Virus record (IMG/VR): IMGVR_UViG_3300025853_005465
Coordinates: 1 to 34,067 of that record
Reading direction: 5' to 3' (one strand)
Origin: a virus
Length of the DNA: 34,067 nucleotides
Numbering within the stretch: the first letter of the stretch is position 1; each line of letters starts with the position of its first letter. This document shows positions 4,957 to 28,288 of the stretch, piece after piece. The position numbers were made by a program, and so were the translations under genes. The notes below the pieces were generated by a model. It did not search any database and was not told the DNA's origin. It saw only the letters and a program-made list of their open reading frames with translations.

Positions 4957-5457
4957 ATGTCGGAATATCGCATCAGATCAACGGGGGAGGTCAAAACTCA
5001 AGGCCAAATCCGTAGTATGCACCCCAATGTTTCACTGCCTAAAGTGTGGAACGCAAACGTCAACGAGACACTTGGGATTGACCCTGTAATGGCGTCACCT
5101 AAGCCTGACCCGTCTGGAGACTACAAGGTTGTTGTACGCAACGGTGTAGAGCAAGACGCCAACGGCAACTGGGTATGGGCTTGGACAGAAAACGATATGT
5201 TCCAAGAGTACACGGATGACGATGACAACGTAGTAACCGTACAGGATCAGATAGACGCCAAGGTAGCCGCTGACAATGCCGCCCTAGAGGCTACAGAACG
5301 AGCTACACGGGACGATCTGTTGAAGGCTACAGACCACTACGGGTTGTCTGATGTAGCCATGACAGACGCTATGACGGCCTACAGACAGGCTCTTAGAGAT
5401 GTGCCACAGCAAGCAGGGTTTCCACAGACTATCACATGGCCTACAAAGCCAGAGTAA
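4957..5457 (+). CDS. Tail fibre assembly-type protein
   Basis: A 166-aa protein with a good ribosome site (AGGAGA upstream of ATG 4957). The N-terminal half is mixed, with MSEYRIRSTGEVKTQGQIRS and a stretch around WVWAWTENDMFQEY. A helical segment at about residues 85-125 is rich in Ala, Asp and Glu. The C-terminus reads YRQALRDVPQQAGFPQTITW then PTKPE, a signature I know from tail fibre assembly/chaperone proteins of many tailed phages. The position directly after two fibre genes fits a chaperone that helps fold or attach the fibre. It could also be a small structural fibre subunit. Confidence 0.65.
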   Translation: MSEYRIRSTGEVKTQGQIRSMHPNVSLPKVWNANVNETLGIDPVMASPKPDPSGDYKVVVRNGVEQDANGNWVWAWTENDMFQEYTDDDDNVVTVQDQIDAKVAADNAALEATERATRDDLLKATDHYGLSDVAMTDAMTAYRQALRDVPQQAGFPQTITWPTKPE

Positions 5458-6985: not shown

Positions 6986-9900
6986 ATGGCTAAAAAGCAA
7001 AGAGCAAAAAGGGTCGCTAGGTACAAGAAGCCTCAAAGAATTAAAGCATTTTCAGGTTTGCCTAATGTTAAGCTTGATGAGAATGGTAAGCCCTATATAA
7101 TAATAAATGGCGAACCTTTTTACTTAAACATAAGTGGCGCTGGAAATAATATTAAACTTGGTACTGGCTCAACCGGAACAGTAACTGGGGCAGGGCAGGG
7201 CGAAGAAGGCGAGCTTTATGTTCCGTTTAGGGATCCTGCAAGAAAGGCTCCCGGCTCTTCTGTGTGGGATAGTTTTAAATACCCGGAGCCAGCCTCAGTA
7301 GATGATCTTCCAAAAGCAGAAGACCTTCCTGAAAGCTTGCGGTACACGCCAGAAACAACAGATGTAAATGCCCCTGAAGTATATTCTACACCCGTTACAG
7401 AAATGAAAGAACCAACTAAAGTAAACCCACCTAATCTTGGTAAAGATGATGATGAGGACGATGAAGATAAAGATCCCCGTGGTGGGGCTAGGCGTGGTGG
7501 TGGTATTCGTCGTAAAAAGGCTCAACGTGGTGGTAAAACAAAACAAGGGCAGGCAACAAGCTCAAGTGGCTCTGAAACAACGGCTTCTAATTTATTAAAT
7601 ACGGTAACACGAACAACGAGGCCAGAGCCTATTCGTCCAGATGTTCCTGAAACAACAGCTACCAACCTTCTTGCAACCATTCAAGGCGTAAAAGACCCTA
7701 AATCGTCTGGCTCTGGGGCGGCTGTAATGGGCGACACGCGGGATGTTGCGGCAACTCAAATACAAGGTGGAAGCGCAGTACCTTCTTCTAGTGCTACTTA
7801 TAGTGCGCCTACTGCTGGACAAGCCGCAAGTGCTACAGCGGCTCAAGTTTCTGCGCCTACTCCTATTCAAGCCGCTACATATCAACCAGACCTTATTGCT
7901 ATGGAAGATGTTCCTCAAGTCCAAGCGGCTCAAGGAACAGTAAGCGATGAAGCGGTGGCTAAGTTTGAAGCTCAAGACCTTACTGAAAGGGCTATAGCGG
8001 CTGAAAGAGATGCCACACAAGAACAGGCCGCATTAACTAAACAGGCCGCACAGTATGAAATTTCTGACGGTGCTTACGTTGATAAAGTCACAGGTACTGT
8101 TACAGATGTTGCCCCTACAAAAGAAGCAGAAGTTGCTCAACGTACAGCAATCTTAGGTTCTGCCGCTGAAGACGGTAAGGCCGCTCAAATTTTAGAAAAA
8201 TTAAACTATGATGTTGCACAAGTACGTCAAGTAAAAGGTACTGCGGCTAAAGGTGCGGCGGCTGAAATGGTTGCAGAGGTTGGACAGCTTCCTCCAGAGT
8301 TAAGTGCAACCATCGTAGAAGATCCTCAAACTGTTGAAGCTCAAATAGACGATCAACCAATAGAAGTTAAGGCGGCTGTTGCGGCTTTGCCTACAGAGGC
8401 CCTTGTATCTTCACAGATGGAAACGCTTCTTGGTGGTATTGAAGACGGTGAAGTTCCTGTATGGGCTAGACCAGCAGTAGAACAAGTAAATAGAATGTTA
8501 GAGCAAAGAGGTTTAACGGCGTCTACCGTAGGTCGTGATGCACTTTTAAATTCTATTATTCAAAGTGCTATGCCAATTGCTCAGTCTAATGCACAAGCAT
8601 TACAGCAAAGGGCCGCTCAGAACCTTTCAAACGAGCAACAGGCCAATGTACAGCAAGCTAACCTAGATGCACAGCGAAGGCTACAAAACACCGCTAATCG
8701 TCAAACAGCGGCTTCTCAGACGGCTCAGATGGCACAGCAAATGTCAGTGCTTCAAAGCCAGTTTGCACAAGACGCTATGATTACTTCTGCGGCTCAAGCA
8801 CAGCAGACAAGATTAGCCAACCTTCAAAACCGTCAACAAACAGCAATTCAAAATGTTCAAAACCAGCAGTCTATTAATGCTCAGAACTTAGGTAACGAAC
8901 AGCAGACTGAACTAGCAAATCTTCAGTTTGAGTTCCAAACCAATGCGGCAAATATGTCTGCTGAGAATCAGTCACGGCTTGTTGAAATGCAAACTGCCGC
9001 AGACTTTCTTGCTAAGAATGCTGGCTTTAAACAACAGATGGAGTTGGCAAACCTAAGCAACGAACAGCAAATGGAGCTTGCAAACTTAACTGCTTTAAAT
9101 CAAGCAGGCTCAGAAAATCTTACGGCTGAACAACAGACAAGGCTTGCAAATCTTGATGCCCGTATGAAGACTAATATGCTTCAAGCTGAAATTGCAAATC
9201 GCATGAATGTTGCACAATTGAATGCAGATCAACAACGTGCTGTTACGAATGCTTCAATGGTTGCCAATATGGATATGGCTCAGTTTAGTGCAGAGCAACA
9301 AGTAATCTTATCCAACAGTAAATTTATGCAGACCATGACTATGAAGGATTTGGATAATCGTCAGCAGGCTGTTATTCAAAATGCTACAGCTATGGCACAA
9401 ATGGATATTACAAACGCCAATAACCAAACAAGAATTGCTGTTGAAAATGCTAAGTCATTCTTGGCTATGGACATGGCAAACTTAAACAATCGTCAACAGG
9501 CGGCAGTTGTTAATGCACAGATGCAACAACAAACAATGTTGTCAAATCAATCTATGGCTAATGCCGCAAAGCAGTTTAATGCTCAAAGCGAAAACCAAGT
9601 AAATCAATTTAATGCAAGCCTAGCAACACAAATTGAACAATATAATGTTAGTCAAGCAAATGCAATGGCACAGTTCAATGCAAGTGAAGCTAATAGGCAA
9701 GCCCAAGCTGAATTGTCAGCCAGTACTGCAATTACTACAGCAAACATTGGTGCTGATGCTACAGTTAAAACTGCACAGCTACGCAACGACAGTGCAGAAC
9801 GAATTGCAAATGCTCAAATGACTTTGCAGGCCGAACAGTTTAATTCTGACCAAGACTTTAGACGAGATCAGTTTAATGCCGCTAATGCTAATGCTATTGC

Positions 9901-10210
9901 TCAAGCAGACATTGCTTGGAGGCGTCAGGTTGCTTTGGCTGAGACAGCCGCACAGAATGAAGCAAATAGGCAAAATGCTCAAAATGCTTTTGCGCTTACT
10001 ATGCAACAGCAACAAAATGCTTGGCTGGCGGCTAGAGACGAAGCTAATTATTTAAATCAACAGTATGAAAATGCAGAAACTAGAAAGACTCAATTGTTAG
10101 CAGTGGCCCTTGGTAACGAAGCGGCGGCTGGAAAAGATAGTGCTACATCTACTAATTCTATGATTACAATGATTGAACAAATGTTTACTGACACAGGAGG
10201 GGGCGGCTGA
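6986..10210 (+). CDS. Large Gln/Asn-rich coiled-coil virion protein (putative internal/ejection protein)
   Basis: A 1074-aa protein. It starts with a basic segment (MAKKQRAKRVARYKKPQR), then a short folded-looking region. Around residues 155-190 an acidic run (DDDEDDEDKD) meets a Gly/Arg/Lys run (RGGARRGGGIRRKKAQRGG). Next come about 300 residues of Ala/Thr/Val/Glu-rich sequence. From about residue 530 to 1035 the chain is helical and extremely rich in Gln, Asn, Ala and Met, with an 11-residue period. There is almost no Cys or Trp. The protein ends with a Ser/Thr-rich segment and GGGG. It heads a run of genes that resembles the ejection (internal core) module of short-tailed phages. I recognise similar proteins from marine phage genomes, but no function is proven; a tape-measure-like role is an alternative. 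Confidence 0.7.
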   Translation: MAKKQRAKRVARYKKPQRIKAFSGLPNVKLDENGKPYIIINGEPFYLNISGAGNNIKLGTGSTGTVTGAGQGEEGELYVPFRDPARKAPGSSVWDSFKYPEPASVDDLPKAEDLPESLRYTPETTDVNAPEVYSTPVTEMKEPTKVNPPNLGKDDDEDDEDKDPRGGARRGGGIRRKKAQRGGKTKQGQATSSSGSETTASNLLNTVTRTTRPEPIRPDVPETTATNLLATIQGVKDPKSSGSGAAVMGDTRDVAATQIQGGSAVPSSSATYSAPTAGQAASATAAQVSAPTPIQAATYQPDLIAMEDVPQVQAAQGTVSDEAVAKFEAQDLTERAIAAERDATQEQAALTKQAAQYEISDGAYVDKVTGTVTDVAPTKEAEVAQRTAILGSAAEDGKAAQILEKLNYDVAQVRQVKGTAAKGAAAEMVAEVGQLPPELSATIVEDPQTVEAQIDDQPIEVKAAVAALPTEALVSSQMETLLGGIEDGEVPVWARPAVEQVNRMLEQRGLTASTVGRDALLNSIIQSAMPIAQSNAQALQQRAAQNLSNEQQANVQQANLDAQRRLQNTANRQTAASQTAQMAQQMSVLQSQFAQDAMITSAAQAQQTRLANLQNRQQTAIQNVQNQQSINAQNLGNEQQTELANLQFEFQTNAANMSAENQSRLVEMQTAADFLAKNAGFKQQMELANLSNEQQMELANLTALNQAGSENLTAEQQTRLANLDARMKTNMLQAEIANRMNVAQLNADQQRAVTNASMVANMDMAQFSAEQQVILSNSKFMQTMTMKDLDNRQQAVIQNATAMAQMDITNANNQTRIAVENAKSFLAMDMANLNNRQQAAVVNAQMQQQTMLSNQSMANAAKQFNAQSENQVNQFNASLATQIEQYNVSQANAMAQFNASEANRQAQAELSASTAITTANIGADATVKTAQLRNDSAERIANAQMTLQAEQFNSDQDFRRDQFNAANANAIAQADIAWRRQVALAETAAQNEANRQNAQNAFALTMQQQQNAWLAARDEANYLNQQYENAETRKTQLLAVALGNEAAAGKDSATSTNSMITMIEQMFTDTGGGG
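8573..10095 (+). repeat. Hendecad (11/22-residue) coding repeat
   Basis: Within the 1074-aa protein the motif L-x-N-x-QQ recurs at steps of 22 or 33 residues (LQNRQQTAI, LGNEQQTEL, LSNEQQMEL, LTAEQQTRL, LNADQQRAV, LDNRQQAVI, LNNRQQAAV). Further on, QFNAQ, QFNAS, QYNVS and QFNAS follow at exactly 11-residue steps (nt about 9570-9700). An 11-residue period predicts long straight or slightly right-handed helical bundles. Confidence 0.8.
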
Positions 10211-10211
10211 T

Positions 10212-11396
10212 ATGGGCTTCTTTAAAAAAGTATTTAAAGGCATCAAAAAAGTCTTTAAGAAAATCGGCAAAGGAATTAAAAGCGCCTTTAAAAAAATTGG
10301 AAAATTTATGGGCAAGATTGGCATCATTGGTCAAATTGGTCTTGCACTTATCCTGCCGGGGGTCGGGCAAATGTTATCGGGCTTATTAGTTGGCACAGGT
10401 AGTACTGTTGGTGGCCTTGCAGGAGCTTTGCAGGGCATGGGTGCTGTTGGTCAAGCCGCCTCTAGTTTTATCCAAGGAGCTGTAAAGGTTGCAGGGCGTG
10501 TAGGAAACTTTTTTAGTTCTGTTACAGATGGCGTTACAAAGGTTGTGGGTGATACAATTGGTGCGATGGCACAAAACCTTGGTATCACGGCTGACAGCGC
10601 ACTTGGTCAAGGATTAAGTAAGTTTGGTATTAATATGGATGTTGATGGCTGGGGAGGAGTTTTTACAAACGCTCAAGAGTCTTTAAGCTCTATAGGGCAG
10701 GCCGGTAAAAACATATTTAGTGTTGATCCACTGCAAGAAATTTCAGTACCTCAAAGAGCTTTAAAAGAAATCCCACAGGATTCGCTTCTTAATGAGGCCC
10801 CACTACGAGAGGCCATTGATAGTGAAGGTGCGCTAAATGCTTTGACTCAAGACAGACTCCAGACCGAAGCGGCTATGGCGCGAGTTGGAGGAGAACCATT
10901 GTTAGGCGGCGACCCCTTTGGCCCTGTAGGTACTATAGATGGTGTAACATATATGAAAGGGCCACCCCCTCAGTCTTTATTAAGTCCAACACAAGCGACC
11001 ACTGCACCTATAACTACAGGAAAGCCCGTTTATGTAGCTCCAGAGACATTTACTGAAAAGGTCATGGCTAAGGGGCAAGAGCTTTATTCAGAAGGCGTTA
11101 AGCTTGCCCAAGAAGAAATAGCACAGGCTCCAGCACGACTAGTGCAGGCAGGCACAACTAAAGTTATGCAAGCTGTAGGCCTAGAAGATGTTCCTGAGTA
11201 TCAATACAATCAATATGCTATTGCTGTACCGGCTATTGATATGGGTTCAACAACGGGTATTGGAGAGGCATTTAATACTGGTCAAGCACAAGAATACTAC
11301 AAGGCTTATAGTAGTGATCTTCAATCAAAACCTTACGGGGATCTTTCAAGTCTCTACGCTTACTTTGACTTTATGAGACAGCGGGGCTACGCATAA
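10212..11396 (+). CDS. Putative membrane-active internal virion protein with cationic N-terminus
   Basis: A 394-aa protein starting at ATG 10212, directly after GGAGGGGG in the end of the previous gene. The first 35 residues are a repeated Lys/Phe/Ile/Gly amphipathic helix (MGFFKKVFKGIKKVFKKIGK, then SAFKKIGKFMGKIG), like a cationic membrane-disrupting peptide. Hydrophobic Gly-rich stretches follow (IGQIGLALILPGVGQMLSGL and GAVGQAASSFIQGAVK). Residues beyond about 150 are mixed and soluble-looking. The setting between large coiled-coil virion genes suggests a protein ejected into, or placed at, the cell envelope, comparable in role to T7 gp14. That equivalence is inference from position and composition, not visible homology. 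Confidence 0.65.
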   Translation: MGFFKKVFKGIKKVFKKIGKGIKSAFKKIGKFMGKIGIIGQIGLALILPGVGQMLSGLLVGTGSTVGGLAGALQGMGAVGQAASSFIQGAVKVAGRVGNFFSSVTDGVTKVVGDTIGAMAQNLGITADSALGQGLSKFGINMDVDGWGGVFTNAQESLSSIGQAGKNIFSVDPLQEISVPQRALKEIPQDSLLNEAPLREAIDSEGALNALTQDRLQTEAAMARVGGEPLLGGDPFGPVGTIDGVTYMKGPPPQSLLSPTQATTAPITTGKPVYVAPETFTEKVMAKGQELYSEGVKLAQEEIAQAPARLVQAGTTKVMQAVGLEDVPEYQYNQYAIAVPAIDMGSTTGIGEAFNTGQAQEYYKAYSSDLQSKPYGDLSSLYAYFDFMRQRGYA

Positions 11397-11968
11397 TGAA
11401 TCAACAATATTATGATGTACTTATAAATGGGGGTCGAGCTATACCGGGATCTAGTTTAACTCGTGATCCTAACGACCCCGCGCCTTATGAAAGGCCACCA
11501 GAGTATGTAAATATACATGAAGCGTCTGAATGGATTTTTAGTCAGCTTATAAACGAAGATAATTATGAGCAACTAATTCAAACTCTGCTTGATGATATAC
11601 CAGTAATGGATATTGCCCAAGTGTTATTGTTTAAAGGTTTTACAGAAGGTAAGTGGACTGTAGATTTAATGATGCTTCTTGCGGAGCCAACGGCCTATAT
11701 GATTTTGGCGCTTGCAGAAAGAGCGGGTGTTGATCCTGTTATTTTTAGGGGTGAAGACGAAGATGATTTACAAGATGAAATATTTTTTGGAACTAAATTA
11801 ACTCGTGAAAAAGTTGAGGCCTTACAAAAAATTTCAGCTTCTGATATTCCCCTTCCTTTTGTGGATCAAAAAGAAAAAGCCAAACTAGAATCTTTGCCTA
11901 CAGCAGAAGATATGGAACTTAAACCAACTAGTTTATTACAGGCTCCTGAAGAAGAGGTACAACAATAA
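11396..11968 (+). CDS. Conserved-looking late protein, unknown function
   Basis: A 190-aa acidic protein whose ATG overlaps the preceding stop (TAATG), so translation is coupled. The N-terminal motif AIPGSSLTRDP followed by PYERPPEYVN resembles an IPG-x-SLT / PWERPP signature I remember from proteins of marine phages, with unknown role. The middle (SQLINEDNYEQLIQTLLDDI, then VDLMMLLAEPTAYMILALAE) is helical. The C-terminus is acidic, with a stretch rich in Pro and Glu. The gene lies between putative internal-virion genes, so a structural or chaperone role in the same assembly is the simplest guess. Confidence 0.6.
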   Translation: MNQQYYDVLINGGRAIPGSSLTRDPNDPAPYERPPEYVNIHEASEWIFSQLINEDNYEQLIQTLLDDIPVMDIAQVLLFKGFTEGKWTVDLMMLLAEPTAYMILALAERAGVDPVIFRGEDEDDLQDEIFFGTKLTREKVEALQKISASDIPLPFVDQKEKAKLESLPTAEDMELKPTSLLQAPEEEVQQ

Positions 11969-13335
11969 TGTCTATTGAAGAGTTTGGACAATCCCTACTT
12001 AATCGACAAAGGGATATAAACAGGCGTAGAGAAAGGGACGCTAAAAAACAAGCTTATCTTGGTTTAGGTTTAACCGTAGCCAAAAAGTTTGCTAATACTT
12101 TTTTAGAAGAACAAACTAGAAAGTTTATGGAGCGTGAAGACTATCAGTCAGCTAGACAAGTTGCTAGGGGGGCTGATAGGGCGAGGGCTTTTGAATTAGA
12201 TTATACAAAGCGAGTAAAAGATTCAGGAAAGACTGAGTATCAATATGAACTTGAATTAGCAAAGCCCATAGCCCAGCAATTTATACAGCAACAAAATCCC
12301 CTTGCTGTGGGTAAAGAATATGATGCTCTTGTTAATGAAATGGCGGCTACAGTAGCTAAGAAAAAGCTAGGCTTAATTTCAGAAATGAGGAATATTGTTC
12401 AACAAGGGCCTGAAAGTTATAGTAATCGTCTCGACTTAATTCAAAAGCGTTTAAGGCCTTCTAATATTGAGCAGGGCGTCACATCTTTCTTGCGTGGTAT
12501 GGTAGATGGTATGTCTAATGAAGACATGGAGCTACGACAGCTTGCGGCATTAAAGGAATATAGTACTCCTGAGATTGAAGGCCCTACTGGAACCATAACT
12601 CTTTCAGAGGCAGAACAGGCCAAGAGACTTAACTCACTCATGGATATGTACGGAAGGACTAGAAATCTAACCCTGTCTACAAACTATGCTGATAATGAAG
12701 CGGCGGCTGAAGCAATAAATAAAAGAATAAAAGAATTGCCTGATGGCTCAAAAACCGAAGAGGGTACAGTTACTGCAAATGTTAATGGGCAACAAGTTAC
12801 TTTCATTGTCAAAAAGAAGACGATGGTTGACGGATCTTCTATGTTTGTTGGTGAACCAAGAGAGTTTAACCCCAGAAGCGAAAAGGATTTAAGTGTTCTT
12901 CAAAAAGAAACCATTGATAAAATGGTTTACGTAGCAGAAAATTATTTTGATACACCTACTAAGAACTCTTTCTTTGCTGGTTTAAGCCAAGAAAGAAAAA
13001 TTGAAAACCCTGACGGTGGGGAGCCTATAGTTATGAAAGCTATAACTGGATTAAATCCTCAGACCCCCGCAGATTTTGCCAGAATGCAATATGATTTTGC
13101 TCTTATTGCAGGAAATAAAGACAATTATAAAGAAGATGATTCCATAGCAGACAATCAAGCCGCCCTATTAAAAATTGTGGCTCAACTAGCGGCTAATGAA
13201 ATGTTTAAAAATTTTGCGGCAACAATAAACGGCAAAGATCCTGATGCGATATCAAACTTAGCTACTGGCATGGCTATGTTTATGAACGACTTTCAAATAG
13301 AATTAATGAAGGTTGGTGGAACTACTGAATTTTGA
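11968..13335 (+). CDS. Putative internal virion protein
   Basis: A 455-aa protein with a coupled start (TAATG overlap). The first about 110 residues are strongly charged and helical (RQRDINRRRERDAKKQ, EEQTRKFMEREDYQSARQVA). They are followed by a central helical part, a short beta-rich stretch (TVTANVNGQQVTFIVKKKTM at about 265-285), and a helical C-terminus. I see no enzyme motif. The size, helical content and position between the 394-aa and 1864-aa genes match the order small/medium/giant of podovirus ejection proteins. This is inference; it could instead be a scaffold-like or tail component. Confidence 0.6.
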   Translation: MSIEEFGQSLLNRQRDINRRRERDAKKQAYLGLGLTVAKKFANTFLEEQTRKFMEREDYQSARQVARGADRARAFELDYTKRVKDSGKTEYQYELELAKPIAQQFIQQQNPLAVGKEYDALVNEMAATVAKKKLGLISEMRNIVQQGPESYSNRLDLIQKRLRPSNIEQGVTSFLRGMVDGMSNEDMELRQLAALKEYSTPEIEGPTGTITLSEAEQAKRLNSLMDMYGRTRNLTLSTNYADNEAAAEAINKRIKELPDGSKTEEGTVTANVNGQQVTFIVKKKTMVDGSSMFVGEPREFNPRSEKDLSVLQKETIDKMVYVAENYFDTPTKNSFFAGLSQERKIENPDGGEPIVMKAITGLNPQTPADFARMQYDFALIAGNKDNYKEDDSIADNQAALLKIVAQLAANEMFKNFAATINGKDPDAISNLATGMAMFMNDFQIELMKVGGTTEF

Positions 13336-13358: not shown

Positions 13359-16300
13359 ATGGCTAAAAGATATCGAACAGAAGTTACGCTTGCCAGTGGT
13401 CGTGTAGTTTATGTTGTGCATGACGGCACCCTGTCTGATGATGAAATCAAGGCAAGGGCTAAAGAGCAGGGTCTTTTAGAAGCCTTTAAAAAAGAACCTG
13501 AAGAAGCACCAGAGCCTGTACAAGAGCCTTCTGAGCCTCCAGAAGAAAACCTTGCGGCTGACCTTACTCAAACGCTTACTCGCACGGCTATGGGGCCAGT
13601 AGAGCTAGGCCAAGATATTCTCAATGCCGCGTGGAAAAATCCTCTAGGTATTGCAGGCAATATGCTGGGCGTCAAAAACGAAGAGGGTGAGCTAGTACCT
13701 GAAGAAACAATTACTAAATTTAAAAATCTATTAGTTGATAATCTTTCTCAAGGTATGCAAGCATACGGCGCTGATGTAGAAAAAGAAGACATCATAGAAC
13801 CAGAAACAGGCGACTATAAAGAGTACTCTACTCTTGCTGGTGGAGCGTCTATGATTCTACCGTACTTTGTGGTTGGTGCGGGTGCGTATAAAACCGCAAA
13901 GCCTTTTGTCGAGAGTGTAAGTAAGTTGCCTCAACTTGCTCAAACTCTTATGGCTGGCGGTATGGCGTCTGTAATTACTGAGAACGCTTTGTATTCTGAC
14001 GATCCTTCTGAGACTATTGCTGGTTTTGTTTCTGATCTTGACGAAGAAGGCGTTATTCAATTAAAGCAAAACACAAAAGACTTTGTTGAGTTTTTTCAAA
14101 TCAAAGAAGATGATGATGCTTTGGACAAAAGAATCAAGCTGAGTCTAGAAGCAATGTTTTTATCTGGCGCTTTTGATTTAGGTTTAGAAGGTCTAAAGCT
14201 AACTGCTAAGGGCGGTACGGCTTTAGGCGCTAGAATGCTTGAAGTCTTTGGCGTATTGAAAGGACAAAAACTAAGTCCCGAAGAACAAGCAGAACAAGCA
14301 CTCAAGATGCTAAAAGAAGCTAGAGAAGAAATACAAATTTCTAGAATAGAGCCTACAGATACTATGAAGTTTTCAGAAACTCCTGAAGGCTTGGCTCAAG
14401 TTGAGATGCAACAGTCTAGCTTTATAAACAGATTTTTAGGTAGTTTGTTTACGTCGAGAGGATACTTTACTCCATTAGCATTTAATATGCACAGGGATAA
14501 AGAGTACGCGACTAGACAAATTATTCAAGAATCTGAAAACATAGCTATGCGTTTGCAACGCTCATTGAATAGTCTTGAAGAGAAGGGCGAAGTAACAGAT
14601 AAAGTTCGTCAGGCTCTGACAACTGCATATGATTTTGATCCAAAAGCCACACTACAGTTTAAAGCTAATAAGATGGGACTGCCTGTTGAAGTAGCTGAAA
14701 ATGTTTTAGAGGCTAGAGAATTAATTGATTCGCTATCTTCTAGGATTGTTAATTCTAATATCCCAGACAGTAATGTTAAAAAGACAATTGAAGATAATGT
14801 TGGTCAGTATTTGAGACAATCGTACAGGATGTTTGAGGATGCTGGTTATACTCCTGATGATGCTGTTGTCAAAAGATTTGTTCAGCAGATTCAGAACATG
14901 AAGATGAAGACAGCTATGGAGGCTGGGCCTATAACTCCTGATGAAATAAAGAGGATGGGCGAAGAGGCACAAGGCATAGTCGATTCAATTCTAGACGGTG
15001 TAAAAGGATCTAGAGGCGATGTTTTAAAATTCTTTAGAAATACGACTGCTGAAAATAGAAAAATACTTTTAGAAAGACAAGACCTTTCAAAAACAGCCAA
15101 GGAGTTTTTTGGTGAGATTGAAAATCCATCTGAAGATGTAATCTTAACCGTCACGAAGATGGCAAGGCTTGTAGAAAACAACAGGTTTAATGAGAATTTA
15201 AAGAGCGCGGCCCTTGGTAAATATCTTTTTGAAAAAGAAGTTATTGATCCAAAGACGGGGAATGTTATAAGTGGTGGGCCAGTAACCAGAACAAGCGAAA
15301 GAACTGGTAGGTCTATAAAATATAATGCTAAGTTAGATATTCCCGGTAGTCCTTTAGATGGGATGTACACTACACCACAAGTTAAGGCGGCTTTAGAAGG
15401 GTTGCAAGATGATTTTCTTGCTGGTAGTGATGGTATGGTTGCTACAGCTTTACGTATTTTTTCTCGCTTAAAGGGTGAAACTCAAAAATCTAAAACTGTA
15501 CGCAGTATAGGTACTCATATGCGTAACATTTTTGGTGGAGCACAGTTTGGATTGGCGAACGGGATGATTTATCCTTTCCATAGCGGTTCAAATTCTTTGA
15601 AAGCTATTGCTAATCAGCAGGGTTGGTTTTTTGACGATAAGTCCTTAACTGACTCCTATCAGAGATACACCCGATTGGGCGTAATCAACACCAGTGTAAA
15701 GGTAAATGAATATAGAAGAGCTTTAAGAGATTTCAATATAGACCCAAAGGGGTTTATAGATCGGTTGCCAATTAAGAATCTCAAGAAAATAGATGAAGGT
15801 GCTGAAGCCGTCTATATGGGAACAGACGATTTCTACAAAATGAATGCCTTTGAGTATGAACTTAAAACTTTGAAGAAGGCTTTTCCTGATGAAAGCGAAG
15901 AAGTTTTAGAAATGAGGGCGGCTCAAATTATTAGAAATACTTTCCCAAACTATGACTTGGTTCCTCCCTTTGTTAAAAATCTGCGATATTTGTTTGTAGG
16001 AAACTTCCCAGCCTTCCCATCAGAAATTATCAGGACAAGTATCAATATTGTTAAGCAGGCCGCAGAAGAAATAAATTCTGGTAATCGTGTAATAGCGGCA
16101 AGAGGTGCAAAAAGACTGACGGGCTTTACGCTTCTCCCGACAGTAGGGTTTGAGGGCGCATCAACGGCAAGTGAATATCTCATGGGTTTTGATGAGGCTG
16201 AAGCAGAAGCGGCACAAGCCAATAGCGAAACGCCTTGGTCTAAAGCCACCAGAATCCATGCGATGGTTGATGGTAAGCCTGCGACAATAGACACACGCTT

Positions 16301-18953
16301 TATTGATTCTTACAATACTATAAAAGAACCTATCCAAAGAATATATGGCGAAATAATTTCTGGAGAACGGCAAGGTAAAGAACTAGATGAAGTCCTTTCT
16401 AGTGCCGCAGAGCAAGCTTTAATATCTTTAGGCGCTCCTTATGCTGAACAGTCCATTCTAACAGAAGCTATTGTTGATATAGGCAGGGGTGTTATAGGAA
16501 GATTTGAAGATACAACAGTTAGAGCCGCAGATGGTACTGTACTAACAGAACCGGAAATGCCTTTGGGTGAATTCTGGGGGAACGCGGCGATAGAGCTATT
16601 AAAGACCTTTGAGCCGGGAACAATGACAGGCATAAGAAATATTTTTTCTGATGAAAAGAAAGCCGCCTTTGACAGACCTAGAAAAGATCCTTATTTAGAA
16701 ACGCTCGCTCTTGCTGGATTCAGAATAACACCAAGGAATGATGATGAGACTGTTTATTCTGCCGCCAGAAATTATCTAGGTAGAAGGGGTAATCAGTCTT
16801 CAACTACGCCCAGCTTTAATAAAGATGAAGCAGAAATCCTAGAGTCTTTTCAAAGAAGGCTTGCTGGTGATTACAAGGCCCAACAAGACTTGTATGACAC
16901 AGTTCGTAGATCTAGGCTTTTGATTGGGGATGTGGCTACTGAATATGAATTAAGAAGGGCGGGTATTGGAACCGATCAAAGGGTAGCTTTGTTTAACAAT
17001 CGTCCTTACTTTACAGACTACGTAAAAAATAACTATCTTGATCTTGTAAGAAAGACAGGAATTACAGACCAAGAAAAATACTCTGCTTATGTACAAAACC
17101 TATACAGCATTCAAAATGCTTATGAGCAAACACCGCTTACGAAAGTTGAGGAGCGTCCAAGACCTCCTTTGAGATCTGCTTATGGTAAAGGCGGTGAAGT
17201 CTACAACGTCCCTCAAGTCCCTGTAGAGCCTGATGAGCGCATAGACAAGATGACAGGACGGCCCTACAACCAGCAGGCTGGTGGGGCTTTCATAGATGAA
17301 GAAGATCGTTCAGGCTTTGCGGCTGGTGCGCTTGTTAAGCAACTGTCTAGGGTACTGTCTAAGGCCGGTACTGAGCCAGCAGTCAATCGTGAGTTAGTTA
17401 AAGAAGACTATGTAGATTTTAGATCTGCTTTTGAGTCTATCGACAACCCTGAAGAGTGGCAGGCTCAGGTAAAAGAAGCCGTAAAACAAAATCGGGCTGT
17501 TGATCCGGTTGTAATTACTCCTGAACTAGAAGAGTCTGCAAAACAATTTGAGGCTGGCTTGATTACTCGTGGTGAACACCTTGAAAATATTGAGATGTTT
17601 AAGCCTATTAGCGAGTATACAAACCTACCTGTAGATCCTACAAATAAAGAACTTGTTTTTTCTCTCAAGCCTGACCAAAGAGAGAACGGTAAGTTTGTTT
17701 TGAATACAAAAGCCGCCGAAGACTTTGGAGTTTCTAAAGCAGAGCTTGCAAAAGGCGACAAATTTAACGGCAGGCTAGACATTCCTGCCTATAAAGCCTA
17801 CGACACTTGGATTGTTGCTGGTACTTCTAAGCCGGGGCAAGGTACAACTTACGCAAAGGCTGTTCACTATGAAGGAAAAGATGGTAAACCCGTAAGATTT
17901 CTTGCTAGTGAAGCAAAGGGTATGCGTATTTTAAAGGGCGAGGATGAAAAGACAGGCTATGCAACAGTCTCTGGCTGGGTAAAAGACCTAGATGCAGAAA
18001 AGATACGGATGCAGGCAGAGCTATATCTAAATGATCCTGATTGGACGCAAGTAGGTTTTGATCCGCGTAGACAAACTCCGTTCTATGTTCGCGAAGAGGG
18101 TAAGTTGAAGGGGGTTCCGGTTACAGAAGCAGACGAGGTTATTCAAATAGGCCCGTTGGTTCTTGCTAAAAATGTTGTAATGGATTTAGAAAGAACTAGC
18201 TTGGCTAGTGGCGGTAGTTTATTAACCAAAGTTTCTCGTTTGATGGAAGAAGGCGCAGAAAAGTTTTTTGGTATTGGAACAGAAGATCTACGACGAAATG
18301 AAGCAGAAGCTATAGCTCTTGTAAATCGTCTTGTTGATGAAGGCGCTTTGCACGAAAGAGAAAGGGTGAAGGTTGAAGATGGGCGTGTGATGGCTGGAGA
18401 TGTATTTAACGCCGCTAATCATATGCTATTGGCTAAGATGGCAGGCGATAACAGTTTAGCCAGAGCCGCTTTACAGGGTAAAGAATATGTCCAGCAGGCT
18501 TTTGGAGACACAGGCTTTCATGGCGCAGTAGGTGATAGACAAAACAACGCTATGGGCTTTGATCTATATGACAAGGCTCAAGGAGATCCTGCTGTATTTG
18601 AAAGTTTTGTAGCAGAGAATTTAGTAGAAAGGTTTGGTAAAAGCAAAGGAGGCATTACAAGACGCTTTGCAGTTGCCAAGGGTGGCAAGATCGACAAGAA
18701 GAAGATGGCCTGTAACAAGCCTAAGCGCACACCTAGCCATCCTAAGAAGTCTCACGTTGTCAAAGCCTGCGAAGGCGGTAAAGAAAAAATAATTCGTTTT
18801 GGTGAGCAGGGCGCTAAGACTGCTGGCAAACCAAAGGCTGGTGAATCTGCACGTATGAAGGCCAAGCGCAAGAGCTTCAAAGCCCGTCATGCTAGAAACA
18901 TCAAGCGCGGAAAGATGTCTGCGGCTTATTGGGCTGATAAGGTCAAGTGGTAA
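13359..18953 (+). CDS. Giant virion protein (1864 aa), putative ejection protein with basic C-terminal module
   Basis: The start is ATG 13359, with GAGAG upstream. Residues 1-45 form a small charged domain (VTLASGRVVYVVHDGTLSDD), then a Pro/Glu linker (EPEEAPEPVQEPSEPPEEN). Residues about 160-205 contain hydrophobic helices (GGASMILPYFVVGAGAYK). The regions THMRNIFGGAQFGLANG (about 718-735) and VGNFPAFPSEIIRTSINIV (about 876-895) are signatures I recall from giant proteins of marine podoviruses. Residues about 1468-1605 form a further conserved-looking domain (DIPAYKAYDTWIVAG, WVKDLDAEKIRM). From about 1772 onward the protein is a Lys/Arg-rich module with four Cys-containing motifs ending SAAYWADKVKW. 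It is most likely the largest internal/ejection protein, analogous to T7 gp16. No lytic transglycosylase motif is obvious. Confidence 0.75.
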   Translation: MAKRYRTEVTLASGRVVYVVHDGTLSDDEIKARAKEQGLLEAFKKEPEEAPEPVQEPSEPPEENLAADLTQTLTRTAMGPVELGQDILNAAWKNPLGIAGNMLGVKNEEGELVPEETITKFKNLLVDNLSQGMQAYGADVEKEDIIEPETGDYKEYSTLAGGASMILPYFVVGAGAYKTAKPFVESVSKLPQLAQTLMAGGMASVITENALYSDDPSETIAGFVSDLDEEGVIQLKQNTKDFVEFFQIKEDDDALDKRIKLSLEAMFLSGAFDLGLEGLKLTAKGGTALGARMLEVFGVLKGQKLSPEEQAEQALKMLKEAREEIQISRIEPTDTMKFSETPEGLAQVEMQQSSFINRFLGSLFTSRGYFTPLAFNMHRDKEYATRQIIQESENIAMRLQRSLNSLEEKGEVTDKVRQALTTAYDFDPKATLQFKANKMGLPVEVAENVLEARELIDSLSSRIVNSNIPDSNVKKTIEDNVGQYLRQSYRMFEDAGYTPDDAVVKRFVQQIQNMKMKTAMEAGPITPDEIKRMGEEAQGIVDSILDGVKGSRGDVLKFFRNTTAENRKILLERQDLSKTAKEFFGEIENPSEDVILTVTKMARLVENNRFNENLKSAALGKYLFEKEVIDPKTGNVISGGPVTRTSERTGRSIKYNAKLDIPGSPLDGMYTTPQVKAALEGLQDDFLAGSDGMVATALRIFSRLKGETQKSKTVRSIGTHMRNIFGGAQFGLANGMIYPFHSGSNSLKAIANQQGWFFDDKSLTDSYQRYTRLGVINTSVKVNEYRRALRDFNIDPKGFIDRLPIKNLKKIDEGAEAVYMGTDDFYKMNAFEYELKTLKKAFPDESEEVLEMRAAQIIRNTFPNYDLVPPFVKNLRYLFVGNFPAFPSEIIRTSINIVKQAAEEINSGNRVIAARGAKRLTGFTLLPTVGFEGASTASEYLMGFDEAEAEAAQANSETPWSKATRIHAMVDGKPATIDTRFIDSYNTIKEPIQRIYGEIISGERQGKELDEVLSSAAEQALISLGAPYAEQSILTEAIVDIGRGVIGRFEDTTVRAADGTVLTEPEMPLGEFWGNAAIELLKTFEPGTMTGIRNIFSDEKKAAFDRPRKDPYLETLALAGFRITPRNDDETVYSAARNYLGRRGNQSSTTPSFNKDEAEILESFQRRLAGDYKAQQDLYDTVRRSRLLIGDVATEYELRRAGIGTDQRVALFNNRPYFTDYVKNNYLDLVRKTGITDQEKYSAYVQNLYSIQNAYEQTPLTKVEERPRPPLRSAYGKGGEVYNVPQVPVEPDERIDKMTGRPYNQQAGGAFIDEEDRSGFAAGALVKQLSRVLSKAGTEPAVNRELVKEDYVDFRSAFESIDNPEEWQAQVKEAVKQNRAVDPVVITPELEESAKQFEAGLITRGEHLENIEMFKPISEYTNLPVDPTNKELVFSLKPDQRENGKFVLNTKAAEDFGVSKAELAKGDKFNGRLDIPAYKAYDTWIVAGTSKPGQGTTYAKAVHYEGKDGKPVRFLASEAKGMRILKGEDEKTGYATVSGWVKDLDAEKIRMQAELYLNDPDWTQVGFDPRRQTPFYVREEGKLKGVPVTEADEVIQIGPLVLAKNVVMDLERTSLASGGSLLTKVSRLMEEGAEKFFGIGTEDLRRNEAEAIALVNRLVDEGALHERERVKVEDGRVMAGDVFNAANHMLLAKMAGDNSLARAALQGKEYVQQAFGDTGFHGAVGDRQNNAMGFDLYDKAQGDPAVFESFVAENLVERFGKSKGGITRRFAVAKGGKIDKKKMACNKPKRTPSHPKKSHVVKACEGGKEKIIRFGEQGAKTAGKPKAGESARMKAKRKSFKARHARNIKRGKMSAAYWADKVKW

Positions 18954-25973: not shown

Positions 25974-26547
25974 TTTTTTCTTCCTTGTATTTTGTAAGCC
26001 GCATAACTCTAGCTCTTCCTATCTTATCACCTCTATAAAATATAAGTCCTTTTAGCTCAAGCTGTCTGGGAATCCAGCCTACCCTTTCTTCGCCCCACTC
26101 TCCAGCATGGTCATCTTTTAGTTGTCTTGAGGTTAGGCCCAGTTCTCCCCGTTCTTCCAAAATATTTAAAATATGTTGCTCTATTTTTTCATCTTCTTTT
26201 GCTTTAGCCTCTACTGCATTTTGATATGTAGCTTCTTGTTCCTTTAGATATTCATCATTATCAATATACCTATCTAAAAAATCTTTTATACCCATAGCCT
26301 GATAATGTTTTTTTCTATTATTTTTATAGGTAGACCATTTTCCTGTAGTCCAATAATATGAAAACGTATCATTGTTTTTATTGGTAATCCACAACATACC
26401 GCCCCCAGCGATCTCATAATAAAAGCCACGCTCATCTAAATAATCTACAACATCTTCTATATCTTCTTGTGTGTAATGTCTGAATATTTTTTTACCTTTA
26501 GAGTTTGTGCGGTGATAATGCCACTTATATTCTTCAGTGTGTTTCAC
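25951..26547 (-). CDS. Winged-helix-like DNA-binding protein, unknown
   Basis: A 198-aa protein from GTG 26547 with GGAG upstream, overlapping the polymerase stop by 14 bases. The N-terminal about 100 residues (YKWHYHRTNSKGKKIFRHY, YYEIAGGGMLWITNK) are Tyr/Trp/Lys-rich with no family I know. The C-terminal region (EQHILNILEERGELGLTSRQ, then GWIPRQLELKGLIFYRGDK) reads like a winged helix-turn-helix ending in a basic wing. It might recruit the polymerase to DNA or regulate transcription. The function is a guess. Confidence 0.6.
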   Translation of the reverse strand: MKHTEEYKWHYHRTNSKGKKIFRHYTQEDIEDVVDYLDERGFYYEIAGGGMLWITNKNNDTFSYYWTTGKWSTYKNNRKKHYQAMGIKDFLDRYIDNDEYLKEQEATYQNAVEAKAKEDEKIEQHILNILEERGELGLTSRQLKDDHAGEWGEERVGWIPRQLELKGLIFYRGDKIGRARVMRLTKYKEEKNENTARA

Positions 26548-28288
26548 TCCAGTTATCTCCTATTTTGTACTCACCATCAAGAGGGCAGAATAATTCTAGC
26601 TCCTCACCCGACTGCTTTATTGCATCAACCCCCAGCATTCCTGTTGCATCAGCCACAGCTTCTTTTACCTCTAACTGCCACTCATCATGCACGTTACAAA
26701 CAAAGTGTGCGTCCAGTGTGTTGAGCTTGATTAGCTGATTAAGATTTATCATCGCCTGCTTCATGATGATAGCGCCAGCACTTTGAAGTAATGTGTTCAG
26801 TGCGGCGTGTTCAGATCGGACATATAGCTTGCGACCATCTAGCCCTTTCAAGAAACCTTTTGAAGCCGCTCGTCCAACTGAGTCTTTAAGATGTTTAAAT
26901 GCAGGGAGATTATCGAAGAAACGCTTTCTAAGTTCCGCACCATCTCTTTTGTTTCCTCCAACCACACTGCCAAGTTTTTCATCTCCTGCTCCGTATAAGA
27001 GTGCATAGATAAATGTCTTTGCCTGATTTCTTGATTCAAGCCCTGCAAGTCTTTGGTTAGCTGAGTGTATGTCTCCGTGCAATATTTCATCTTTGAACCC
27101 CTCATCCTTCATGTAGTGTGCAAGCATACGCAACTCAAGGCCGCTGGCGTCAATACCAACCAGCTTGTAGCCGTCTGCCACAGTCCAACAGGCCCGACAC
27201 TCTTTGCCGTAGGGCGCTGAGAGGTTGGGAACCTGTGCCATGTTGGGGCTGTTGTGTGTCATGCGACCTGTGATAGTTCCGTTTGGATTAACAAAACCGC
27301 GAACACGATCATCGTCGTGACAAGCCTCAAGCCAAGAGGACACCTGTGCTATTCGCTTCTGAAGCAGAAGGTACTCAGCAATCAGTGTGGCCTCTGGAAT
27401 ATCTTTAATCTTACTGAGCGTAGACTCATCAACGATTGGCTGACCTGTGGGTGTGAACCGCTTGGGCTTCCAACCAAAATCAATCAGATACTCACCAATC
27501 TGTTTACGTGATCCAAGGTTGAAAGGAGTTTCTTCAATACGTACAGCCTTACGCTTTATTGCAATCTCTTCATATTCCTCTTGAGTCAAGCGGCTTTTCT
27601 TTTCTGAGCCTTGGATGAGGCCCATCTTAGATAGTGCGCCTGTCTTGGTAAAGTGTGGTAGAAGAATAGTTTTTAGTTGCTTAGGTCTGAAGGTCTTCTG
27701 CACCTCACGTTCTACTTCCTTGAGGCGATCAGTCAGTTCAGCGACAAGCAGTGTTGCGGCCTGTACATTCAGAAGAAAACCATGCTCTCTTTGATCTGCA
27801 ATAATCTTTAGTGCTTCATGTTCTAGCACTACAGACTGTCGGCTGAAGCCCCGTGATTCTGCTTTAAGATTATTAAACATCTTGGCGTTGAGTACTGCAT
27901 CGTTGCGACAGTAGTTCAGCATCTCTGGAGAGTACTCGCCAAACTCTTTGTGATCTATTTTCTGAAGACCAATGCGATAGCCCCAAGACTCAAGGCTGTG
28001 CCCACCCTCGCGTGTTGGGTTAAAGAGGCGAGACAATACTAGCGTGTCTACGATGGCGCGGTTCTCAGTCAGATCAATATTGTGTATCTTCTTGATGGCT
28101 GGTAAGTCATAACCAATGATGTTGTGACCTATCAGTTTGTCTGCACTGGAGAGGTGAGCCAAACCCTGAACAATCTCAGTAGGCCCAAAGGTCTTTGTCT
28201 CTCCAGAGTCAGGATCGACAGCCGCAATACACCATATCTTTGTAGGCTCTAGGCTGTCTGCTTCTATGTCAAAGACAATACTTTTCAT
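26534..28288 (-). CDS. DNA polymerase, family A, with 3'-5' exonuclease
   Basis: A 584-aa replicative polymerase, T7 gp5-like. Exonuclease motifs are FDIEADSL (D7, E9), HNIIGYDLPAI (D61) and YCRND (Y126, D130). Polymerase motif A is LVGIDASGLELRMLAHY with D380. Motif B is RNQAKTFIYALLYGAG (R420, K424, Y428, Y432). Motif C is CNVHDEWQLEV (H534, D535, E536). The residue corresponding to E. coli F762 is Tyr (Y428), as in T7. The protein is shorter than T7 gp5 (704 aa), so the thioredoxin-binding thumb loop is probably reduced or absent. It copies the phage genome with the adjacent primase-helicase; ATGA overlaps couple the two genes. Confidence 0.95.
   Translation of the reverse strand: MKSIVFDIEADSLEPTKIWCIAAVDPDSGETKTFGPTEIVQGLAHLSSADKLIGHNIIGYDLPAIKKIHNIDLTENRAIVDTLVLSRLFNPTREGGHSLESWGYRIGLQKIDHKEFGEYSPEMLNYCRNDAVLNAKMFNNLKAESRGFSRQSVVLEHEALKIIADQREHGFLLNVQAATLLVAELTDRLKEVEREVQKTFRPKQLKTILLPHFTKTGALSKMGLIQGSEKKSRLTQEEYEEIAIKRKAVRIEETPFNLGSRKQIGEYLIDFGWKPKRFTPTGQPIVDESTLSKIKDIPEATLIAEYLLLQKRIAQVSSWLEACHDDDRVRGFVNPNGTITGRMTHNSPNMAQVPNLSAPYGKECRACWTVADGYKLVGIDASGLELRMLAHYMKDEGFKDEILHGDIHSANQRLAGLESRNQAKTFIYALLYGAGDEKLGSVVGGNKRDGAELRKRFFDNLPAFKHLKDSVGRAASKGFLKGLDGRKLYVRSEHAALNTLLQSAGAIIMKQAMINLNQLIKLNTLDAHFVCNVHDEWQLEVKEAVADATGMLGVDAIKQSGEELELFCPLDGEYKIGDNWSETH

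Follow-up and report, generated by a model that had tools for sequence, protein, structure and literature searches.

Organization of the Locus

The window considered here is a virus record of 34,067 bases, with its ends classed by the IMG/VR rules; its source is a marine virus that infects bacteria. On the plus strand, the ORF at 6986–10210 encodes a protein of 1074 residues with relatives in both phage and IMG/VR records. Composition and pN/pS define a variable N-terminal part (aa 1–429, nucleotides 6986–8272), Gly/Pro/Lys-rich at first and then Ala-rich, followed by a strongly conserved non-repeat segment (aa 430–540, nucleotides 8273–8605), recognized by invariant alignment columns and by pN/pS. 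Next comes an array of 33 in-register hendecads (aa 541–903, nucleotides 8606–9694), delimited by autocorrelation, indels, a register table and pN/pS. A variable linker or hinge (aa 904–936, nucleotides 9695–9793), marked by indels, pN/pS and a break in the AF2 model, separates this array from a second, weakly hendecad helical block at the C-terminus (aa 937–1048, nucleotides 9794–10129), which is predicted as helix by AF2 and covered by the family profile up to aa 985.

In PHROG (E up to 0.1) and in Pfam (at each family's cut-off) the repeat protein had no match, and the whole window had none in Rfam. Upstream, positions 3–2336 encode a tail-side protein that resembles a tail fiber at its C-terminus and has beta-propeller-like matches (Lactonase, SGL).

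The 11-Residue Repeat

An earlier note on this DNA had described about 500 residues of exact hendecad repeat at nucleotides 8573–10095, corresponding to aa 530–1037 of the ORF. Identity autocorrelation over that segment, with 500 shuffles of the same residues as the null, gave z values of 9.9, 8.3, 8.1, 8.1, 7.0 and 6.6 at lags 22, 11, 66, 44, 55 and 33, respectively, and 2.3 at the best lag that is not a multiple of 11. The exactness of the period was thus borne out, as were the spacings reported for particular motifs (L-x-N-x-QQ at 22 and 33 steps, QFN/QYN at 11). The extent needs qualification: the period runs from about aa 541 to 985 and is uninterrupted over the 33 turns of aa 541–903, but the variable break at aa 904–936 then intervenes and the periodicity of the C-terminal block is weaker.

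The turns are degenerate in sequence. The consensus of aa 541–903 reads Q(1) M/A/T(2) A/R/E(3) L/M(4) A/Q(5) N(6) A/L(7) Q/S(8) N/A(9) E/A(10) Q/N(11), and position 11 is invariant in 19 of the 33 turns, meaning that conservation depends on register. Over aa 530–1037 the composition is 19.7% Ala, 17.9% Gln, 13.2% Asn, 7.1% Leu and 5.1% Met, with VILMFYW totaling 22% and a single Pro; of the two residues said earlier to dominate, Ala indeed does, whereas Met is less frequent than Leu. In the power spectrum, the 11/3 periodicity for which a Fourier check had been proposed is found for Gln (peak of 20.8) but not for hydrophobicity, whose power is 1.1 at 11/3 and which peaks instead at 11/4 (33.2) and 11/5 (23.1).

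At nucleotides 9140–9535 (aa 719–850) identity is higher at lag 22 (about 0.27) than at lag 11 (0.09–0.18), which makes this part of the array a super-repeat of double hendecads. The HMO-2011 and HTVC104P counterparts likewise have higher identity at lag 22 than at lag 11. No 33-base tandem array is left in the coding region, and a recent DNA tandem duplication was accordingly rejected as the origin of the repeat.

Conservation and Array Length among Relatives

A tblastn search with the ORF retrieved 26 phage records, none of which reached 60% identity: two of Puniceispirillum phage HMO-2011, roseophages (ten), pelagiphages (four), Vibrio phage CHOED (two), Pseudoalteromonas phage Slicky01, Aeromonas phages (two), Rhizobium phages (three), Sinorhizobium phage phiM6 and one Caudoviricetes record. 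Relatives were also present in 80 IMG/VR loci, and a scan of genome contigs yielded three loci only, in environmental MAGs. The counterparts in the seven phages examined (HMO-2011, CRP, HTVC, CHOED, Slicky01, MQM1 and phiM6) are all annotated as hypothetical, that of HMO-2011 being hypothetical protein phage1322_25.

We compared the protein with 52 non-redundant relatives, taken as stop-to-stop ORFs (one of them truncated by a frame change), and counted only gaps flanked on both sides by at least 30% identity. The stretch aa 541–901 is free of gaps in 49 of the 52; the other three contribute four gaps, of 55, 55, 110 and 4 residues. Among gaps of at least four residues, 20 of 41 within aa 541–1030 are multiples of 11, vs 4 of 122 elsewhere in the protein. 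Those within aa 541–1030 that are not multiples of 11 all fall at 902–950, except for one of four residues, and indels of all sizes cluster in that same interval. Frame changes near query aa 715–740 interrupt the repeat ORF in two relatives (L043, 12300–12800; L065, 10750–10950) and most likely represent sequence errors.

In five pairs of sequences, pN/pS was 0.10–0.25 for the 33 hendecads and 0.06–0.27 for aa 430–540, vs 0.58–0.69 for aa 1–429 and 0.40–0.75 for aa 904–936. The repeat is under strong purifying selection.

The length of the array is another matter. At one threshold for nine proteins, the spans covered by the profile were 101 (CHOED), 130, 161, 196, 221, 237, 326, 463 (the window) and 584 residues (L044), an approximately six-fold variation, part of which may reflect divergence shortening the spans seen; in the seven annotated phages the range is 101–326. 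Arrays running from about 100 to 580 residues make a fixed-length ruler unlikely, and the earlier idea that the repeat sets a length is weakened to that extent. The estimate of a helix of about 75 nm also has to be reduced: the array is helical in prediction, but with a hinge at aa 904–936 the longest unbroken block is 363 residues, equivalent by arithmetic (0.15 nm per residue) to a straight helix of about 54 nm.

Helix Geometry and Structure Prediction

The layout of the repeat was analyzed on a helical wheel at 98.18° per residue (11/3), an angle that is assumed rather than measured, using 49 sequences (the window and 48 of the 52 relatives) and, as the null, shuffling of positions inside each hendecad. 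Hydrophobicity showed no first-order component (p 0.55) but a strong second-order one, with axes at 71° and 251° (p < 1/3000). Charge points to 161° and Gln to 329° (p < 1/3000 for each). These directions place a charged face opposite a Gln-rich face, with hydrophobic flanks on both sides, an arrangement suited to a helix that forms part of a wall or barrel, as opposed to a two- or three-stranded coil. A classical right-handed hendecad coiled coil with one hydrophobic core stripe at 11/3 was rejected on the hydrophobic power and first-order result given above. Hydrophobicity also has an order-5 component, its strongest harmonic, corresponding to the 11/4 peak, and packing in a wall leaves this peak unexplained.

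Six divergent relatives, for which the register was chosen with the profile so that the agreement is partly circular, gave hydrophobic axes of 59–77° and Gln directions of 297–338°. With the same partial circularity, charge fell at 159–184° in five of them, the sixth (phiM6) giving 326° with negligible amplitude.

AF2, run on aa 400–1074 with an alignment of 49 sequences, did predict the helix on which the earlier reading depended, at low confidence. The long helices include aa 515–652, 660–763, 813–925 and 934–1048, with a break at aa 926–933; pLDDT is mostly 74–80 over aa 934–1048. The model backs helix weakly, and its mean pLDDT of 56 and pTM of 0.21 carry no evidence on fold or assembly. 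Foldseek searches of PDB and BFVD with the models of aa 400–1074 and of the 455-residue product of a neighboring gene returned nothing informative beyond a 43%-identical protein of an uncultured virus, and a PDB profile search with the repeat family and three of its neighbors gave no match below E 0.1.

A Conserved Five-Gene Block

The repeat gene opens a conserved block of five genes, all on the plus strand, that ends in a giant ORF and is common with HMO-2011-type phages. The second gene (10212–11396) encodes 394 residues with a cationic amphipathic start and then a Gly-rich hydrophobic stretch; the third (11396–11968, 190 residues) is the most constant in size (164–248 residues); the fourth (11968–13335, 455 residues) is predicted by AF2 as mixed helix and strand; and the fifth (13359–18953, 1864 residues) resembles a gp16-like ejection protein in its size and position. 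A search of 87 loci, many of them truncated at the end of a contig or flank, found relatives of these four genes in 69, 80, 47 and 45, respectively. Complete relatives of the fifth gene product have 1136–2030 residues. In seven annotated phages, a repeat gene of 459–706 codons is followed by zero to four extra annotated genes, and the block then continues with genes for 164–188, 365–652 and 817–1638 residues.

The 1864-residue protein matches phrog_22602, annotated as virion structural protein (E 6.5e-23); its last 86 residues (18693–18953), a basic tail, match phrog_7595 (E 1.4e-36). The 394-residue protein has weak matches to tape-measure PHROGs and a single hydrophobic stretch (aa 33–62, mean hydropathy just above 1.6), the gp14-like feature being several transmembrane helices. 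The mechanical ORF opens at a TTG (10173), but conservation places the start of this gene at the ATG at 10212, and the strongly cationic amphipathic stretch in its start region is common to the relatives. In two pelagiphage relatives (L089, 6166–8280; L002, 22873–23292), two 2OG-Fe(II) oxygenase genes, a putative ferrochelatase and an Hsp20 lie in or beside the structural block.

The ejection proteins of T7 (gp14/gp15/gp16), P22 (gp7/gp20/gp16) and N4/DEV are also encoded by an operon of large genes with the giant one last, and passages of PMC8954989 describe known podovirus ejection genes as clustered, with a large last gene. By this analogy, the genes of the block may encode ejection proteins. 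Sequence comparison with the known members was negative: the repeat protein showed no similarity to comparators from T7, P22, N4 and lambda (hhalign probability at most 1.7% with H included, and at most 0.3% for the T7, P22 and N4 members), three of the neighboring genes gave hhalign probabilities below 1% against T7, P22 and N4 members, and no similarity to solved structures was found for the second, third and fourth genes. According to the same passages, known ejection proteins often lack mutual sequence similarity too, and gp15-like proteins are recognized via size and synteny more than via sequence (PMC8954989). No comparable hendecad array occurs in the T7, P22 and N4 gp51/gp52 proteins, whose z at lag 11 does not exceed 1.9; N4 gp50 reaches 3.8 at one place.

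HMO-2011-type phages are defined, in the relevant part of PMC9038755, by a family A polymerase into which a partial DnaJ domain bearing two CXXCXGXG motifs is inserted. The window has a family A DNA polymerase on the minus strand (26534–28288), in which no such DnaJ-type motif was found; for this reason we limit the claim to a structural block in common and do not assign the virus to the HMO-2011 type. It would seem that an HMO-like structural block is combined in this virus with a different type of replication.

Comparison with the phiX174 H Tube

The pilot protein H of phiX174, as presented in portions of PMC7354561 (tube structure, PDB 4JPP), has 328 residues, with three hendecads each beginning with Gln and then 11 heptads. 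The lumen of the tube carries Asn, Gln or Arg at 18 of 23 inward positions, with Gln acting as drag, and the text of Table 1, taken without its colors, suggests that Q1 and Q8 face the lumen. The hendecads of the repeat protein likewise open with Gln, in the same register, and the Gln at positions 1 and 8 with an uncharged inner stripe would match this feature of microvirus H. Placed on the 11/3 wheel, nine H-tube hendecads gave charge at 147°, Gln at 341° and a hydrophobic axis at 68°, each direction within about 15° of the corresponding one in the repeat protein. The differences are also clear. The repeat protein has 33 hendecads in 1074 residues and no heptad section (hydrophobicity power of 0.0 at 7/2, lag 7 not among the top lags), and it belongs to a dsDNA phage, whereas H belongs to an ssDNA phage. 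Hydrophobic membrane-spanning ends are a feature of H, whereas no strongly hydrophobic 19-residue segment (mean hydropathy at least 1.6) occurs in the repeat protein.

When the register profile of the family was scanned along full-length H, the best window was residues 141–173, in the register that aligns Gln with Gln. Its score of 21.9 was reached by none of 1000 shuffles of H and by 7 of 498 control ORFs, all seven being family members (five divergent phage homologs and two fragments of broken ORFs); none of the remaining 491 scored above 12.1. We also shuffled within 33-residue blocks, which preserves local composition, for 14 proteins with no correction for their number. H and G4 H were not equaled in 2000 shuffles each, and alpha3 H scored 10.1 (p 0.027), the three H proteins being mutually related; P22 gp20 (p 0.0055), N4 gp52 (p 0.02) and T7 gp14 (p 0.037) followed, and the other eight were not significant. 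The microvirus phiMH2K VP2 did not match the profile (score 0.8, p 0.59). Under permutation of whole columns, the register match to H was borderline over the 11 phases (p 0.061) and had p 0.006 at fixed phase; with a profile made from the window alone, p was 0.080.

Homology to H is not supported by BLASTP (E 0.034) or hhalign (probability 1.7%). In the database search, H came top without composition correction, with shuffled and reversed decoys close behind, and was gone once the correction was applied. We conclude that the repeat protein and the H tube are similar in design, whether by common ancestry or by convergence. The suggestion in the earlier note that the helix lines a tube would fit this resemblance as well as the wheel geometry.

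A Candidate DNA-Conduit Protein

From the repeat, the conservation of its register, the wheel layout and the gene neighborhood, we infer, with a probability of roughly 0.5, that the 1074-residue protein is carried inside the virion of a short-tailed phage and ejected, and that its helices line a conduit for DNA. After adsorption, it would exit the head along with the other products of the block, and several copies would come to lie side by side, their hendecad helices forming the wall of a channel across the cell envelope. The charged stripe (positions 3 and 10) would then face outward, the Gln/Asn stripe (positions 1 and 8) would face the DNA, and the hydrophobic positions (4 and 7; 2, 5 and 9) would contact neighboring helices. 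The amide lining might guide or brake DNA in transit, a role already proposed for the H tube of phiX174. In the openly accessible literature we found no virion proteomics that would bear out, for the protein or its relatives, the placement in the virion made in the earlier note, and no description of a Gln-rich helical phage ejection protein; judged by title, the phiX174 paper is alone among those there on hendecads in bacteriophage in dealing with a phage tube.

The protein might instead be an internal core or scaffold component, its helices stacking or sheathing around the portal or the packaged DNA and never forming a trans-envelope channel. We regard this as rather unlikely, even though the wall-like wheel is equally compatible with a ring or a sheath, and the T7 and DEV ejection proteins and a crAss cargo protein form helical rings at the portal before ejection, as set out in parts of PMC8954989 and PMC10925440. 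The amide stripe opposite a charged stripe resembles the H tube, and known core proteins are usually ejected too, so that this reading overlaps with that of an ejected protein.

That the array is the long coiled-coil stalk of a tail fiber or spike, giving reach, appears improbable: its length would be suitable and tail-fiber-like genes lie upstream, but a parallel dimer or trimer needs one hydrophobic stripe, and the first-order component is absent, as is hydrophobic power at 11/3. Furthermore, no receptor or trimerization domain was recognized in the protein, and the gene is followed by the block with the giant ORF and not by a fiber chaperone, a chaperone-like gene being located at 4957–5457 instead.

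True kinship with microvirus H, through an ancestral DNA-conduit module in ssDNA microviruses and dsDNA tailed phages, is doubtful to the same degree. The profile does pick out the hendecads of H in the same register, just after an AGF motif that also precedes hendecads of the repeat protein (aa 679–681). However, the pairwise scores given above are poor, hendecads converge easily, H passes from three hendecads to heptads that the repeat protein lacks, and phiMH2K VP2 is unmatched. A tape-measure-like ruler, in which helix length sets the size of a structure, is very improbable given the spread of array lengths and the short tails of cultured relatives (PMC6918029 and PMC9038755, in the portions concerned), even if whole hendecads account for about half of the larger indels across the repeat region and the second gene has its weak tape-measure matches.

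Going one step beyond the ejected conduit protein, we tentatively raise a broader proposition, to which we would give less credence: marine dsDNA podoviruses related to HMO-2011 and ssDNA microviruses may use the same conduit design, a multi-helix barrel of Gln-first hendecads with an amide lining, whether as an inherited module or by convergence, grown to tens of turns in the podoviruses.

The rule for the lining is readable, with Gln on the inside, charge on the outside and hydrophobic residues on the flanks, and makes a candidate conduit of this kind testable. If the conduit reading is true, the amide-lined helical conduit of an ssDNA phage of 5 kb would have its counterpart in dsDNA phages, and this would bear on whether such conduits are a general way of moving nucleic acid.
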